This document shows, in pieces, positions 25,521 to 31,203 of a DNA stretch of 64,000 bases (the stretch's first letter is position 1; every line of letters begins with the position of its first letter). The stretch comes from an uncultured Fretibacterium sp. (GTDB lineage: Bacteria; Synergistota; Synergistia; Synergistales; Aminobacteriaceae), in the NCBI GenBank assembly GCA_946186205.1, contig CAMHMH010000009.1:1-64000 (forward strand). The letters run 5' to 3'. The notes under the pieces are model-generated. The model worked only from the letters and a program-made list of their open reading frames with translations. It was not told the origin of the DNA and did no database searches. The translations under genes were made by a program, and so were the position numbers.

Positions 25521-28500
25521 ATGTCCGCATTAGACAGTATCATACAGACAATACACGACAGCCCCGACTCCGACAAAGGGACTCTGTTCGAGAAGTTATG
25601 CCTCTATTTTCTCAGGAACGACCCGACACAGCAGCAAAGACTCTCGAACGTTTGGCCCTGGCGTGAATGGCCCGGCAATGAAGGACAGCCCGATACAGGC
25701 ATCGACATAGTAGCGAGAGTCCGCGACTCCGAATCGTATTGCGCGGTTCAGTGCAAGTTCAGAGAGGACGACTCATCAATCACAAAGGCCGAAATCAATT
25801 CATTTCTCGCATTAAGCAGCAAAGAAATTTTTTCAGCACGCATTCTTTTCACACTCACTGACAACTTCAACTCACACGCACGCAGCGCACTCACAGACCA
25901 GTCGCCCGGCGTAACAATTCTCACACGCAAAAATCTTGAGGACTCTAATATCGATTGGGACTCGTTCGACTTCAGCAAGCCCGGCCATGTCTCTCACATC
26001 GTCAAAACGTTACGGCCTCACCAAATCAAAGCTATTGATGACGTTATGAAAGGACTCGCAGCTCATGACCGGGGCAAATTAATCATGGCCTGCGGAACCG
26101 GCAAAACGTTTACTTCCCTCAAGATCGCCGAGAGATTCGCGGGGAAGGGCGGAGTCGTTCTCGTTCTCGTTCCGTCAATCTCGCTCATGAATCAAACCGT
26201 CATCGCGTGGAACAATGACCATGATGACAAACTACCCTTGATACAGTTCGCAGTGTGTTCTGACTCTACCGTCGGAAGATACCCGGAGGAAGATTTGAGT
26301 CCCGCTGATCTTGCTTTCGAGGCAACAACAGACTCAGAGAGTCTCATATCGACATGGCGAAAACAGACTCACATCTCCGAGTCAATGACCGTCGTTTTCT
26401 CAACGTACCAGTCACTTCACAAAGTCAAAGAGCTTCAGGATAACGGCTTCCCAGTTTTTGACCTCGCAATTTGTGATGAGGCTCACAGGACAGCAGGAGT
26501 CAGCAGCAACAGCGATAACGATTACGACAAAAATTTTCAGCTCATTCATGACGACTCATTCATCAAAGCGCGCAAACGACTCTACATGACCGCAACGCCC
26601 AAAGTTTTTGGCGACACTCAAGCACGCAAAGCCGCAATCAAGAAGAAAGCACAAGAACATAACGCCGTCCTTTACTCGATGGACGATGAGAAAATTTACG
26701 GCCCGGAGTTTCATACGCTCTCCTTCAAGAAAGCCATTGAGGGAAAATTACTGACCGATTACAAGGTGATTATATTCATGGTCGAAAAGGGAAGCGATGA
26801 TGACCCGGATTTACCTGCAAAGATTCAGGGAGTCCGAAAAGCACTCGCAAAAGACATAAGCCCCGCCGATTTCGATTTCATTCAAGGCGATGAAGAACCG
26901 ATGAAACGCGCCGTCGCTTTCTCAAACACCATAAAAGCCTCGCAGGAGTTCACGAATAATTTTCCTCAGACCGACTCACCAATATCATGCGGAGTCAAAC
27001 ACATTGACGGTACATTGTCAGCCTCAAAACGCGCCGCAAAAATTCATTGGCTCGCTTCAGACTCACAACCCGGCGAGTGCCGAATACTCTCAAACGCACG
27101 GTGCTTAAGTGAAGGTGTTGACGTTCCCGCATTGGACGCAGTTATTTTCCTCAACCCACGAAGCTCACAGATCGACATCGTACAGAGCATAGGCAGAGTC
27201 ATGCGAAAGTCTGAAGGCAAGAATTACGGCTATGTCATTCTCCCCGTCATCATTAACGCAGACGAGTCCCCCGAAAAAGCTCTCGACAAAAACGAACGCT
27301 ATCAAGTCGTCTGGAAAGTATTGCAGGCTCTCCGCGCTCATGATGAAAGATTCACAGCAATCGTGAACTCCATCGAACTGCGCGACAAAGTGAGAGTCAC
27401 AACAGGCGGCGGCGACTCTTACTCGCTGAATGACATTCTCGCGGACAAATACAGGGAGGAAATATATATACGCCTCGTGAGGAAATGCGGCGGCGGTTAC
27501 TGGGAGTCGTGGATAAAAGATTTCGTTGCGGCGTTCAAAGAAATATCTGCGCGAATTACATCGTCAGCAAAAATACCCGGCATCAAGGAACGATTCGACT
27601 CCTTCACTGATGAGCTTAAGTCCGTAATCAATCCTTCAGTGAATCATCAGCAGGCTGTCGAAATGTTAGCGCAGCACATAACAAGCAAAGAAATTTTTGA
27701 CGCTATATTCTCCGGGTTCTCGTCTCAGAATCCAATCTCAAAAGCCATGCAGGAAATGAGGAAGTTTATCGAGTCAAACGGAATCGACTTAGACCCAAAA
27801 GGACTCGAAGACTTTGACAGCCACATACGCACTGAAGCCGCAAAAGCTGACACGGGCGCAAAGAAACAGCTTCTATTAGTCAAAATCTACAATAACTTCT
27901 TCAAGCACGCTTTCCCCGAAACAGCCGAAAAGCTCGGAATCGTTTACACCCCTCCTCAGATCGTTGACTTCATTCTCAGAAGCTCGGACTGGGCAGCGCG
28001 TAATGAACTCGGAATCACTGAGGGACTCGGCGCAAAGGGAGTACACATTCTTGACCCCTTCAGCGGAACAGGAACTTTCACGGCGAGACTCATTCAGCTC
28101 GGACTTATACCGCTGTCGAATCTCGGACTCAAGTATCAGGAAGAAATACACGCCAATGAATTGCTGCTCATCGCCTACTACATTTCAGCCGTAAACATTG
28201 AGGCATCATTCAGCCAGGCCTGCGGGGTAAATGTTCCGTTCATGGGTATGGTACTCGCTGACACATTCAGGCTCAACAAGGACAGAACACCTCCGTTAAT
28301 GGGCAAGGACAAAATCCCCCTGCTTTACGAGGACGGAAGGAGAGCTTACGAGGAAGAAACGACAGACATACACGTGATAATCGGCAACCCTCCGTACAAC
28401 GTCAGCGGAAAGATCCCGGGCTATGAAGCAGTCGACGAAAGAATCTCCGGGACTTACTCAGAGGACAGCGACGCGACAAACAAAGGCTCGTTATACGACA

Positions 28501-30002
28501 GCTACATACGCGCTATAAGATGGGCATCGGACAGAGTGAACGAAAAGGGCGGAATAGTATGCTTCGTAACAAACGCTTCATTCATTGACGGGGCAGCAAT
28601 GGATGGAATGAGATACAACCTCGCGAAGGACTTCACATCTATTTACGTCTTCAACCTCAGAGGCAACGCGAACACAAGCGGAGAATTACGGCGGAATGAG
28701 GCGGGAAATGTTTTCGCTGACGGTACAAAGCTCCCTATAGCGATAACACTGTTCGTGCGGGATGTCAGCAAGGCGAGTCCGAATCATGATTGCGGGATAT
28801 GGTATTACGAGTGCGCGGACGGAATGAAGCAGGAGGAAAAACTTCTTGAGCTTGAAGAGCGCGTTTCATTCGGCGAGATGATGAGGGAAGGAATCATGAA
28901 GAGTGTTGCGCCTGATGACATACACAGCTGGATTAATCAGCTCAGTGAGTCATACGGGGGATTCTTTTCTCTTGGCAGCAAGAAGAAGAACTCAAAGCAC
29001 GGAACAAGGCCGACGATTTTTGATGACAGGTATTCGCGCGGAGTCGAGTCGGGCTGCGATGCACTGCACTGTAATTTTTCGCGTGATGAATTGTGCGCTA
29101 ACATAAAGGCAAAATATCCTGACGCTGTAATAAGTGATGACACTGTAAGAGATGTGCTTTACAGTCCGTATGTCAGAATGATGATGTACTTCAGCGATGA
29201 TATAACGTACAGGGTTTACCAAATGCCCCAGATTTTTCCGAAGCATGACACAAAAAATTTGCTGATATGTGTTACAGGTGTAGGGAGCAAATATTTCTCT
29301 GCGGTTATGGTTGATAGACTCCCGGCACTAACCATCATGGAAAAGAGTCAATGCTTCCCGCTGTACTGGTACGAGGAGACAAAGAGTCCGCTTCTCGGCG
29401 TTCACAAAAAGCAGCGCGACGGAATAAGCGACTCGGCTCTTGGGGTTTACCGTGAGAGATACGGCGATGAGATAACGAAGGAAGATATATTCTTCTACAT
29501 TTACGGTGTGTTAAGCTCGCGTGAGTATGCATTGCGTTTCGGGAATGACACGAGGAAGGCACTTGCGCGAGTACCGTTTGTGAAGGACGCAGAGACGTTC
29601 CGGGAATTTTCGCGTGCCGGGCGTGAGCTTGGAGCTTTGCACGTTGGTTACGAGTCTGCGGAGGAATGGCCGGTAGATGTGAGATATGACGGAGTGCGAA
29701 TCACAAAGCTGACTGTGAACAAGAAGGACAAGGACGACAAAAGCACGTGGGAAATTGCCGGGCCGGGCGTAACGGTGAGTGAGATTCCTGCGTGTGCGTG
29801 GGAGTATCGTGTGAACGGGAGAAGCGCGCTTGAATGGATCGTTGAACGTTACCGTGATGATGTTGACAAGGCGAGCGGGATTCGGAATGACTGCAACGAA
29901 TGGAACGGAGCGGGGTATGTTGTGAGCTTGATACGTCGAGTCGTAACAGTGAGTGTTGAGACTGTGAGAATATTGGAGGGACTGCCGGAATTGGGAATAT
30001 GA
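25521..30002 (+). CDS. Type ISP single-polypeptide restriction-modification enzyme
   Basis: 1493 residues combining all restriction functions, as in LlaGI/LlaBIII. Order: N-terminal Mrr-like nuclease (1-150; GIDIVARV...AVQCKF); superfamily 2 helicase/translocase (about 160-660) with Walker A ACGTGKT (190), CDEAHR (318) and motif VI QSIGRVMR (555); a helical coupler; N6-adenine methyltransferase with DPFSGTGTF (844) and NPPYN (955); target-recognition region to the end. Such enzymes methylate one strand, translocate along DNA and cut after head-to-head collision. No separate specificity subunit is needed or found. All catalytic motifs look intact. Confidence 0.92.
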   Translation: MSALDSIIQTIHDSPDSDKGTLFEKLCLYFLRNDPTQQQRLSNVWPWREWPGNEGQPDTGIDIVARVRDSESYCAVQCKFREDDSSITKAEINSFLALSSKEIFSARILFTLTDNFNSHARSALTDQSPGVTILTRKNLEDSNIDWDSFDFSKPGHVSHIVKTLRPHQIKAIDDVMKGLAAHDRGKLIMACGTGKTFTSLKIAERFAGKGGVVLVLVPSISLMNQTVIAWNNDHDDKLPLIQFAVCSDSTVGRYPEEDLSPADLAFEATTDSESLISTWRKQTHISESMTVVFSTYQSLHKVKELQDNGFPVFDLAICDEAHRTAGVSSNSDNDYDKNFQLIHDDSFIKARKRLYMTATPKVFGDTQARKAAIKKKAQEHNAVLYSMDDEKIYGPEFHTLSFKKAIEGKLLTDYKVIIFMVEKGSDDDPDLPAKIQGVRKALAKDISPADFDFIQGDEEPMKRAVAFSNTIKASQEFTNNFPQTDSPISCGVKHIDGTLSASKRAAKIHWLASDSQPGECRILSNARCLSEGVDVPALDAVIFLNPRSSQIDIVQSIGRVMRKSEGKNYGYVILPVIINADESPEKALDKNERYQVVWKVLQALRAHDERFTAIVNSIELRDKVRVTTGGGDSYSLNDILADKYREEIYIRLVRKCGGGYWESWIKDFVAAFKEISARITSSAKIPGIKERFDSFTDELKSVINPSVNHQQAVEMLAQHITSKEIFDAIFSGFSSQNPISKAMQEMRKFIESNGIDLDPKGLEDFDSHIRTEAAKADTGAKKQLLLVKIYNNFFKHAFPETAEKLGIVYTPPQIVDFILRSSDWAARNELGITEGLGAKGVHILDPFSGTGTFTARLIQLGLIPLSNLGLKYQEEIHANELLLIAYYISAVNIEASFSQACGVNVPFMGMVLADTFRLNKDRTPPLMGKDKIPLLYEDGRRAYEEETTDIHVIIGNPPYNVSGKIPGYEAVDERISGTYSEDSDATNKGSLYDSYIRAIRWASDRVNEKGGIVCFVTNASFIDGAAMDGMRYNLAKDFTSIYVFNLRGNANTSGELRRNEAGNVFADGTKLPIAITLFVRDVSKASPNHDCGIWYYECADGMKQEEKLLELEERVSFGEMMREGIMKSVAPDDIHSWINQLSESYGGFFSLGSKKKNSKHGTRPTIFDDRYSRGVESGCDALHCNFSRDELCANIKAKYPDAVISDDTVRDVLYSPYVRMMMYFSDDITYRVYQMPQIFPKHDTKNLLICVTGVGSKYFSAVMVDRLPALTIMEKSQCFPLYWYEETKSPLLGVHKKQRDGISDSALGVYRERYGDEITKEDIFFYIYGVLSSREYALRFGNDTRKALARVPFVKDAETFREFSRAGRELGALHVGYESAEEWPVDVRYDGVRITKLTVNKKDKDDKSTWEIAGPGVTVSEIPACAWEYRVNGRSALEWIVERYRDDVDKASGIRNDCNEWNGAGYVVSLIRRVVTVSVETVRILEGLPELGI

Positions 30003-30008
30003 TATAAT
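30000..30008 (+). promoter_or_regulatory. Convergent (antisense) extended -10 promoter, unit A
   Basis: TGATATAAT, overlapping the stop of the type ISP gene and pointing towards the 3' end of the small minus-strand ORF of unit A. The same nine bases occur at 30423-30431 in unit B. No matching -35 box was found. Confidence 0.45.
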
Positions 30009-30023
30009 TTTTTCGTAAGTAAA

Positions 30024-30055
30024 GGGGAAACAGCCGAGAGAGAAAGCTAATCCCC
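30024..30055. ncRNA. Hairpin of unit A: 5' stem-loop of a putative antisense RNA and/or 3' end of the peptide mRNA
   Basis: GGGGA (30024-30028) pairs with TCCCC (30051-30055), inner AGC with GCT, leaving a purine loop CGAGAGAGAAA. Read on the minus strand it is a hairpin followed by TTTACTT, terminator-like. It matches hairpin B at 30438-30467 in position and loop type. RNA existence is inferred. Confidence 0.4.
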
Positions 30056-30084
30056 CGCAAAAACATTAAGGTGTTACCATCGGA

Positions 30085-30233
30085 CTACCGGGTGAACCAG
30101 TCCCACACAAGCAGAACGATTCTTAAGACCCAGTAAAGAGCAGCGGCTGAATGAGCGATCACGGGAAGATACTCACGCCACTGCTTTTTTTTGAGGCTTT
30201 CTTGCGCTTCTTTGCACGAGGCTTAACACGCAA
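30085..30233 (-). CDS. Small cationic membrane peptide, unit A (frameshift at an A8 run)
   Basis: TTG start at 30233 with AGGAGGTGATC, an almost complete match to the 16S anti-SD. The first frame encodes a basic head (RVKPRAKKRKKASKK). After eight A (30192-30185) the matching tail is in the -1 frame: REYLPVIAHSAAALYW then a hydrophobic helix ending WDWFTR, stop at 30085. The joined 48-residue product aligns with the intact 42-residue peptide of unit B. Its 0-frame holds A AAA AAA, a classic slippery string, so -1 frameshifting or transcript slippage could make the full peptide; otherwise it is a pseudogene. Confidence 0.5.
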
Positions 30234-30349
30234 GGCTGATCACCTCCTCTCCACAGAGCGGTTCTCCGTTGAACGATGAGCCTCTGCAACTCACCCACGT
30301 TGTGGGCTTCCCAGCGGCCCGAAGCTCCCTCTTGCAAAATATTATGACA
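30234..30349 (-). promoter_or_regulatory. Promoter and structured leader of unit A peptide
   Basis: Minus-strand TGTCATAAT (30349-30341) is an extended -10-like box. The ~100-base leader contains CCCAC-AAC-GTGGG (about 30296-30308) and other GC-rich complementarity. Long folded leaders are typical of type I toxin mRNAs. Confidence 0.4.
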
Positions 30350-30422
30350 GATGAGAATTTATGACTTGAATGTTCTTTTTGTAGCGTTGTGTCTAATATG
30401 TATCAGCGTGTACTAATGTGTG

Positions 30423-30431
30423 TGATATAAT
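30423..30431 (+). promoter_or_regulatory. Convergent (antisense) extended -10 promoter, unit B
   Basis: TGATATAAT, pointing into the 3' end of the unit B peptide gene; the counterpart of 30000-30008. Confidence 0.45.
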
Positions 30432-30437
30432 TTGAAT

Positions 30438-30467
30438 GCAGGGTCAGAGAAGAGGAAACTGCCCTGC
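30438..30467. ncRNA. Hairpin of unit B: putative antisense RNA stem-loop and/or mRNA 3' end
   Basis: GCAGGG (30438-30443) pairs with CCCTGC (30462-30467); inner CAG with CTG after one bulged T; loop AGAAGAGGAAA. The loop is purine-rich like that of unit A, and its complement on the minus-strand mRNA would be pyrimidine-rich, allowing loop-loop contact. Confidence 0.4.
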
Positions 30468-30497
30468 GTTGAAAGGTTTAATGATTACCCGGTCCGA

Positions 30498-30626
30498 TTA
30501 ACCTATGAACCTATCCCATAACAGGATGGCCAGTCGGATCAACCAGTAGAGAGCAGCGGCGATTATATCCAGACGAGGGGATTTGTTCGCCGCTTTTCTT
30601 TTCCGGGATTTTTTCTTAGGAGCCAT
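30498..30626 (-). CDS. Small cationic membrane peptide, unit B (type I toxin-like)
   Basis: 42 residues: a lysine/arginine-rich head (MAPKKKSRKRKAANK) and one hydrophobic helix (about 20-38, IIAAALYWLIRLAILLWDRF). This build, a short basic segment plus a single membrane helix, is shared by several type I toxins and holin-like peptides. ATG at 30626 has GGGAG nine bases before it; the longer open frame to 30683 starts in the leader. It is a paralogue of the unit A peptide 0.4 kb away. Membrane-damaging activity is inferred only. Confidence 0.55.
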   Translation of the reverse strand: MAPKKKSRKRKAANKSPRLDIIAAALYWLIRLAILLWDRFIG

Positions 30627-30707
30627 GTAATTCAACTCCCTCCCGCACGACAAGCTCCCCTTGTGGTGATGCGTGCTACTCACCCGAGGCCTCTTCGATG
30701 TGAGGAT

Positions 30708-30716
30708 ATTATATCA
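30708..30716 (-). promoter_or_regulatory. Extended -10 promoter of unit B inside the end of folK
   Basis: Minus-strand TGATATAAT. The folK stop codon TAA lies inside this box. A leader of about 75 bases with GGTGAGTAGC...CACC-type complementarity separates it from the peptide start. Confidence 0.5.
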
Positions 30717-31203
30717 GACTCGTAACTCTCAGCGGCCAGCTTTCACCGTCAACCCTTTCTATCATTTCGCGAACCGTCAAATCATTCTCAGGATGCCGCC
30801 AATCCTCCGGGACAATCTGACTCAATGGCACAAGGACAAACAAACGCTCCGGGATTCTCACGTGCGGAATGTCTAAATCCTGCGAGTGAAGTATCACGTC
30901 ATCCATCAGCAGAATATCAATGTCAATCTTCCTTGCGCCCCACCGAACTGACTCGGCACGTCCTATTTCGCGCTCAAAATTTTTGACGGCCTTCAAGACT
31001 TCGTGAGGCTCATAACATAATGGCGACTCGACTCTCACACATGCGTTGAGATAGTCGGGCTGTTCGACTCCTCCCCAAGGGACTGTGCTGAATACGTCGC
31101 TTGACTTTGAGACATGGCCGAATCGTTTCAGCTTCTCCGCTGCGAGTCTGAGACTCTGTAACCTGTTGCCCAAGTTCGAGCCCAAAGCAAAATATATGTT
31201 CAT
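30709..31203 (-). CDS. folK: 2-amino-4-hydroxy-6-hydroxymethyldihydropteridine pyrophosphokinase
   Basis: Transfers pyrophosphate from ATP to hydroxymethyl-dihydropterin in folate synthesis. 164 residues, the usual HPPK length. Signatures: N-terminal ALGSNLGNR, the YLNACVRVES strand and the family box RWGARKIDIDILLMDD with the two metal-binding aspartates, then IPHVRIPERLFVLVPL. No folP or folB adjoins it. Its stop codon is embedded in the promoter of the downstream small-peptide unit. Confidence 0.93.
   Translation of the reverse strand: MNIYFALGSNLGNRLQSLRLAAEKLKRFGHVSKSSDVFSTVPWGGVEQPDYLNACVRVESPLCYEPHEVLKAVKNFEREIGRAESVRWGARKIDIDILLMDDVILHSQDLDIPHVRIPERLFVLVPLSQIVPEDWRHPENDLTVREMIERVDGESWPLRVTSLI

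Follow-up and report, generated by a model that had tools for sequence, protein, structure and literature searches.

A candidate type I toxin-antitoxin family in Synergistota: tandem genes for a small cationic membrane peptide, each faced by a predicted convergent antisense RNA gene

The window analyzed here, the whole stretch of 64,000 nucleotides, carries two tandem minus-strand units between a type ISP restriction-modification gene and folK (Table 1). The earlier note described each unit as the gene of a tiny cationic membrane peptide opposed by a promoter and a hairpin on the plus strand. The plus-strand TGATATAAT boxes and the hairpins that follow them are indeed present in both units, and unit 2 has the minus-strand -10 box, the strong Shine-Dalgarno (SD) sequence and the 42-codon reading frame, whose product has a Lys/Arg head and a single helix. 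Unit 1 departs from that description in two respects: its minus-strand extended -10 box is the weaker TGTCATAAT, and it has no intact 48-residue reading frame.

Table 1. Positions of the two units, their elements and the flanking genes in the window; extents of RNAs are predictions.
Feature	Position	Strand	Remark
Type ISP restriction-modification gene	25521-30002		Pfam Type_ISP_C
folK	30709-31203
Unit 2 peptide-gene extended -10 box TGATATAAT	30708-30716	(-)	overlaps folK 3' end
Unit 2 leader, ~75 nt	30627-30701	(-)	from sequence and leader-set alignment
Unit 2 leader 5' motif GAAGAGG	30690-30696	(-)	same letters as antisense hairpin loop
Unit 2 leader pseudoknot	30645-30689	(-)
Unit 2 pseudoknot stem c	30686-30689/30657-30660	(-)
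Unit 2 pseudoknot stem a	GGTGA 30680-30684/TCACC 30665-30669	(-)
Unit 2 pseudoknot stem b	GCACG 30672-30676/CGTGC 30645-30649	(-)
Unit 2 SD GGGAGGGAG	30636-30644	(-)
Unit 2 peptide reading frame, 42 codons, intact	30498-30626 (codons 30501-30626)	(-)
Unit 2 antisense extended -10 box TGATATAAT	30423-30431	(+)
Unit 2 predicted antisense RNA, ~165 nt	30438-30602	(+)	predicted from promoter and terminator
Unit 2 antisense 5' hairpin	30438-30467	(+)	purine-rich loop GAAGAGG 30449-30455
Unit 2 antisense intrinsic terminator AGCGGCGA...TCGCCGCT TTTCTTTT	30553-30602	(+)	within peptide coding region
Unit 1 weak extended -10 box TGTCATAAT	30341-30349	(-)
Unit 1 leader, ~101 nt	30234-30334	(-)
Unit 1 leader motif GAGGGAG	30325-30331	(-)
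Unit 1 leader 24-nt insert	30294-30317	(-)
Unit 1 strong SD GAGGAGGTGATC	30238-30249	(-)
Unit 1 peptide gene, frameshifted	30085-30233	(-)	A8 run 30185-30192
Unit 1 antisense extended -10 box TGATATAAT	30000-30008	(+)
Unit 1 predicted antisense RNA, ~178 nt	30015-30192	(+)
Unit 1 antisense 5' hairpin	30024-30055	(+)
Unit 1 antisense intrinsic terminator AGCAGCGGC...GCCACTGCT TTTTTTT	30139-30192	(+)	inside peptide gene

The peptide of the intact unit 2, MAPKKKSRKRKAANKSPRLDIIAAALYWLIRLAILLWDRFIG, carries a net charge of +9, with a Lys/Arg head followed by one helix, which AlphaFold2 places from a single sequence at residues 17-41 (mean pLDDT 74). The antisense -10 box of this unit points into the 3' end of the peptide gene. 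In unit 1 the antisense promoter, hairpin and terminator are all intact, and its start frame (TTG at 30231-30233) reads LRVKPRAKKRKKASKKSSGVSIFP and then meets a stop, 24 codons in all; the membrane-helix part, QWREYLPVIAHSAAALYWVLRIVLLVWDWFTR, lies in a different frame after the A8 run. The frameshift at this run, together with the weak -10 box, makes it probable that unit 1 is decayed or phase-variable. Programmed -1 frameshifting at the A8 run was considered and is disfavored, since relatives are intact without any frameshift, reading ASKKQWREYLP at the same site (L020). Because these relatives read through intact, decay or phase variation is the preferred, though unproven, explanation.

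The 42-residue peptide of unit 2, used as a query, has relatives in 38 of 61 related genomes, and a family profile built from 30 sequences matched 51 of 188 genomes from the phylum, in 7 of 63 genera, all belonging to one family of Synergistales. The home genus is nearly saturated (40 of 43 genomes positive), single genomes hold up to about 9-10 matches, and about 100 distinct units were collected. When some 85,000 species genomes were scanned with the antisense-hairpin pattern, matches came only from Synergistales/Synergistaceae, namely from uncultured members sampled in goat, sheep, deer and reindeer gut; the same pattern had no match in viral contigs, and tblastn against phage and plasmid collections found no relatives of the peptide. 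About nine of the loci sit after a type ISP gene and many others beside housekeeping genes. The position next to the type ISP gene is therefore read as one conserved chromosomal site, and a link to restriction-modification was dropped.

Family peptides have a median length of 46 aa, a net charge of +9 and a hydrophobic helix, contain Trp and follow the consensus ...KKQRRxxLxxIxxxAAALYWLVxxxLLLWDRF. This is the build of most type I toxins, which are peptides of fewer than 60 aa with one membrane helix (PMC8309996). Judging from seven close pairs, with pN/pS of 0.10-0.42 per pair and about 0.27 pooled, the peptides are under purifying selection. They form two subfamilies, between which leader and loop differ jointly. 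The suggestion that the peptide is unlike known families held: Pfam, NCBIfam, PHROGs and PDB sequences returned only stray weak matches, each to one or two members, and Rfam gave no match for the region at a permissive threshold or for the whole window.

The two-strand arrangement is far more regular than chance would produce. Among home-genus units with enough sequence, 93 of 95 have a convergent extended -10 box on the opposite strand (pattern TGNTA[AGT]AAT, searched up to 130 nt beyond the stop codon; shuffles predict 1.5), at a median of 59 nt past the stop. Retention of the convergent promoter and hairpin by homologues, by which the earlier note proposed to judge its own reading, extends to six other genera: the box is exact in 14 of 18 complete units and near-exact in two (by eye), and hairpin, in-gene terminator and leader are kept, likewise by eye, though the letters differ widely. 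The arms of the antisense 5' hairpin covary, none of 2000 permutations reaching the observed score in a test that, like the other covariation tests here, keeps shared ancestry in the data. At its other end the predicted antisense RNA has an intrinsic terminator that lies within the peptide gene; it consists of an inverted repeat with T's behind it, one arm being made of the codons for KKQRR and the other of those for IAAALYW. Over 91 units this terminator is stronger than synonymous recodings of the same peptides (mean 21.9 vs 15.2, Wilcoxon p=3e-15), in unit 2 its strength is matched by 1 of 60 synonymous shuffles, and its arms covary as well (63 distinct arm pairs, 0/2000 permutations); some units of subfamily B (L033, L085, L058) have weak terminator scores. 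A generic scan for promoters and terminators picked up neither element, because it required a -35 box and short loops.

With the in-gene terminator the antisense RNA gene is complete. At the sequence level it has what the antitoxin gene of a type I pair should have, its own promoter and terminator and complementarity to the toxin mRNA. The predicted RNAs of about 165-180 nt span the 3' hairpin of the mRNA and roughly two thirds of its coding sequence.

The sense strand is equally well conserved. Of 92 units, 84 have a TATAAT box (5.1 expected), placed some 82 nt before the start codon, and start codon and SD are kept across the family. The leader holds three interleaved stems, in the order c a b a' c' b', directly upstream of the SD. 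A free search for H-type pseudoknots was too permissive to be of use (31.0 vs 28.7 in shuffles). In the anchored covariation test used instead, stem a (48 distinct arm pairs) and stem b (39) were each matched by 0/2000 permutations and stem c, with weak covariation, by 14/2000. Going by this covariation, the leader of the peptide mRNA folds as a pseudoknot upstream of the ribosome site.

Ahead of the pseudoknot stands a first motif that varies among units (GAGGGAG, GAGGGG, GAGGAAG, GAAGAGG and others) and that agrees with the antisense loop of its own unit beyond the loops of other units (0/5000 permutations). Since the loop of the mRNA's own 3' hairpin is the complement of the antisense loop, the 5' and 3' ends of the peptide mRNA could pair with each other; the match between leader and loop, taken alone, leaves the partner RNAs undistinguished, and the test is suggestive of such pairing and not proof because the permutations keep shared ancestry. 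In 60 of 92 units (13.1 expected) the complement of the antisense -10 box forms a T-rich stretch behind the sense 3' hairpin, which may therefore act as a terminator of the peptide mRNA as well.

From these features we consider it likely that the units are type I toxin-antitoxin pairs and make up a new family, the reading which the earlier note had put forward and which the in-gene antisense terminator, then not described, further supports at the sequence level. With less assurance, though still on balance, we favor a specific design for this Synergistota family, in which toxin codons double as the antitoxin's terminator, the complement of the antitoxin promoter supplies the T-rich tail of the toxin-mRNA 3' hairpin, and the mRNA is locked by the leader pseudoknot together with 5'-3' pairing. 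The sense promoter would give a short mRNA. Its pseudoknot would form immediately before the ribosome site, and its GAGGGAG-like motif at the 5' end could pair with the 3' hairpin loop of the same molecule; the two structures together would likely keep the full-length mRNA poorly translated. From the convergent promoter, located some 60 nt beyond the stop codon, would come an antisense RNA with a kissing hairpin at its 5' end and a terminator formed in the toxin codons (KKQRR...IAAALYW) at its 3' end. It is predicted to pair with the mRNA from the kissing loop through some two thirds of the coding sequence and, because it spans this much of the mRNA in addition to the 3' hairpin, to block translation and/or recruit RNase III. 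Once the antisense RNA was lost, the cationic one-helix peptide would be made, insert into the cell membrane and act there; it is probably toxic.

A small membrane protein under antisense control that is no toxin, such as one that regulates a membrane complex, kept in several copies, would account for the same sequence evidence, and purifying selection suits any useful peptide. We nevertheless regard such a protein as unlikely, as type I toxins are typically marked by multicopy tandem arrays, unrelated chromosomal neighbors, a broken copy next to an intact one and several RNA locks stacked on a cationic helix. An exported, leaderless bacteriocin-like peptide whose dose is tuned by the antisense RNA would likewise be cationic, Trp-containing, about 46 aa long and encoded in tandem copies, but no exporter or immunity gene recurs beside the loci, the neighbors being mostly housekeeping genes (functions assigned partly by eye), and this explanation appears very improbable.

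Two further possibilities, which we both regard as highly improbable, concern the plus-strand RNA. It could be the functional product itself and the peptide an accident, the T run of the terminator encoding part of the Lys head; the state of unit 1, where the RNA elements are kept and the reading frame is broken, would suit this. The pooled pN/pS of about 0.27, the preserved start codon, SD and upstream sense promoter, and the conserved C-terminal LLLWDRF, which lies outside the terminator, all speak for a peptide that is used. Conversely, the RNA could be inert and the convergent promoter could act by transcriptional interference only, as the promoters of unit 2 stand face to face within about 280 nt; a covarying 5' hairpin and a selected 3' terminator, however, point to a defined RNA product.

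The family represents a strongly conserved multicopy type I candidate in a further phylum, and we found no type I pair from Synergistota in the open-licence literature. According to a 2025 paper, type I pairs were described, before the cyanobacterial case it presents, only from Proteobacteria, Firmicutes and Tenericutes, a range for which it proposes search bias as the cause (PMC12390103); the present candidate came to light through its two-strand layout, without resemblance to known toxins playing a part. Its roughly 100 natural variants provide a ready covariation set in which the folding of a toxin mRNA, by pseudoknot and 5'-3' pairing, can be followed together with antisense pairing, and the family suits the study of one DNA stretch that serves as codons and as an opposite-strand terminator. 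Such a compact two-strand design, if true, was not reported in the open-licence literature searched, where we found no described family that combines an in-gene antisense end, 5'-3' locking and a leader pseudoknot.

Single elements of the design do have parallels. TxpA/RatA of Bacillus subtilis, with which the earlier note compared the units, and its relatives BsrG/SR4 and BsrE/SR5 share with them the small membrane peptide, the convergent cis-antisense RNA at the 3' end and the multicopy state, and a loop-loop start of pairing is plausible in all. The resemblance to TxpA/RatA stops at the layout, because RatA, as far as described in PMC4147584, overlaps the txpA mRNA by about 75 nt and stops short of the coding region, whereas the Synergistaceae antisense RNA is predicted to enter it, cover about two thirds and end there. 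The Synergistaceae units also have a pseudoknot leader, of which the portions of the literature consulted on the TxpA/RatA group make no report. Fst/RNAII (par of pAD1) resembles the units in its small membrane toxin and in converging RNAs with a 3'-end overlap, RNAII too remaining short of the coding region according to PMC4147584. AapA/IsoA of Helicobacter pylori is likewise chromosomal, multicopy and controlled by a cis-antisense RNA, and the full-length aapA mRNA is kept inert by a long-distance 5'-3' interaction (PMC6733600), to which the pairing suggested here is similar; the 5' motif of our units, however, lies upstream of the pseudoknot and not at the ribosome site, and AapA1 has 30 residues (PMC8322730) compared with a median of 46 aa. 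A leader pseudoknot controls translation of the toxin in TimP/TimR (PMC11228461) and in TisB/IstR-1 (PMC7708055) of enterobacteria; the present family shares a leader pseudoknot, by the covariation of stems a and b, but here the antitoxin would pair with the coding region and the 3' end, and the predicted RNA never reaches the leader. On present evidence we place the family in neither TxpA/RatA nor AapA/IsoA, the searches for toxin homology having covered Pfam and NCBIfam, with no convincing match. Like MsoT1/MsoA1 of Microcystis (PMC12390103), it would extend type I pairs beyond the classic phyla, the host being a cyanobacterium there and a member of Synergistota here.

In about nine related species the peptide units adjoin homologues of the type ISP restriction-modification gene, in the same position as in the window. 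A 24-nt insert interrupts the unit 1 leader in the window (unit 1 being the frameshifted copy), and an identical insert is present in the leader of L007, the relative of unit 2 in another species. Within the home genome, the 22-nt core of the insert has a single occurrence. The insert may have been transferred between tandem units. Short inserts with inverted repeats, differing from the 24-nt one, were also observed in the leaders of four other family units (L010, L134, L137 and L138). Judging from the sequences, it is as if the leader loops of family units tolerated insertions.

Features in the window
Feature	Position	Strand	Remarks
Type ISP restriction-modification gene	25521-30002		1493 aa
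Leader insert CCGCTGGGAAGCCCACAACGTGGG	30294-30317	-	24 nt; inside leader of unit 1
Unit 2 promoter box	30708-30716	-	shares bases with final codons of folK
folK	30709-31203		3' end overlapped by unit 2 promoter box

A further unit lies in a 3123-base stretch of the home assembly (G000), found in identical copies at C2:35338-38460 (L003) and C10:30414-33536 (L004). Because the stretch is identical on two contigs, one of these copies may be an assembly duplicate.
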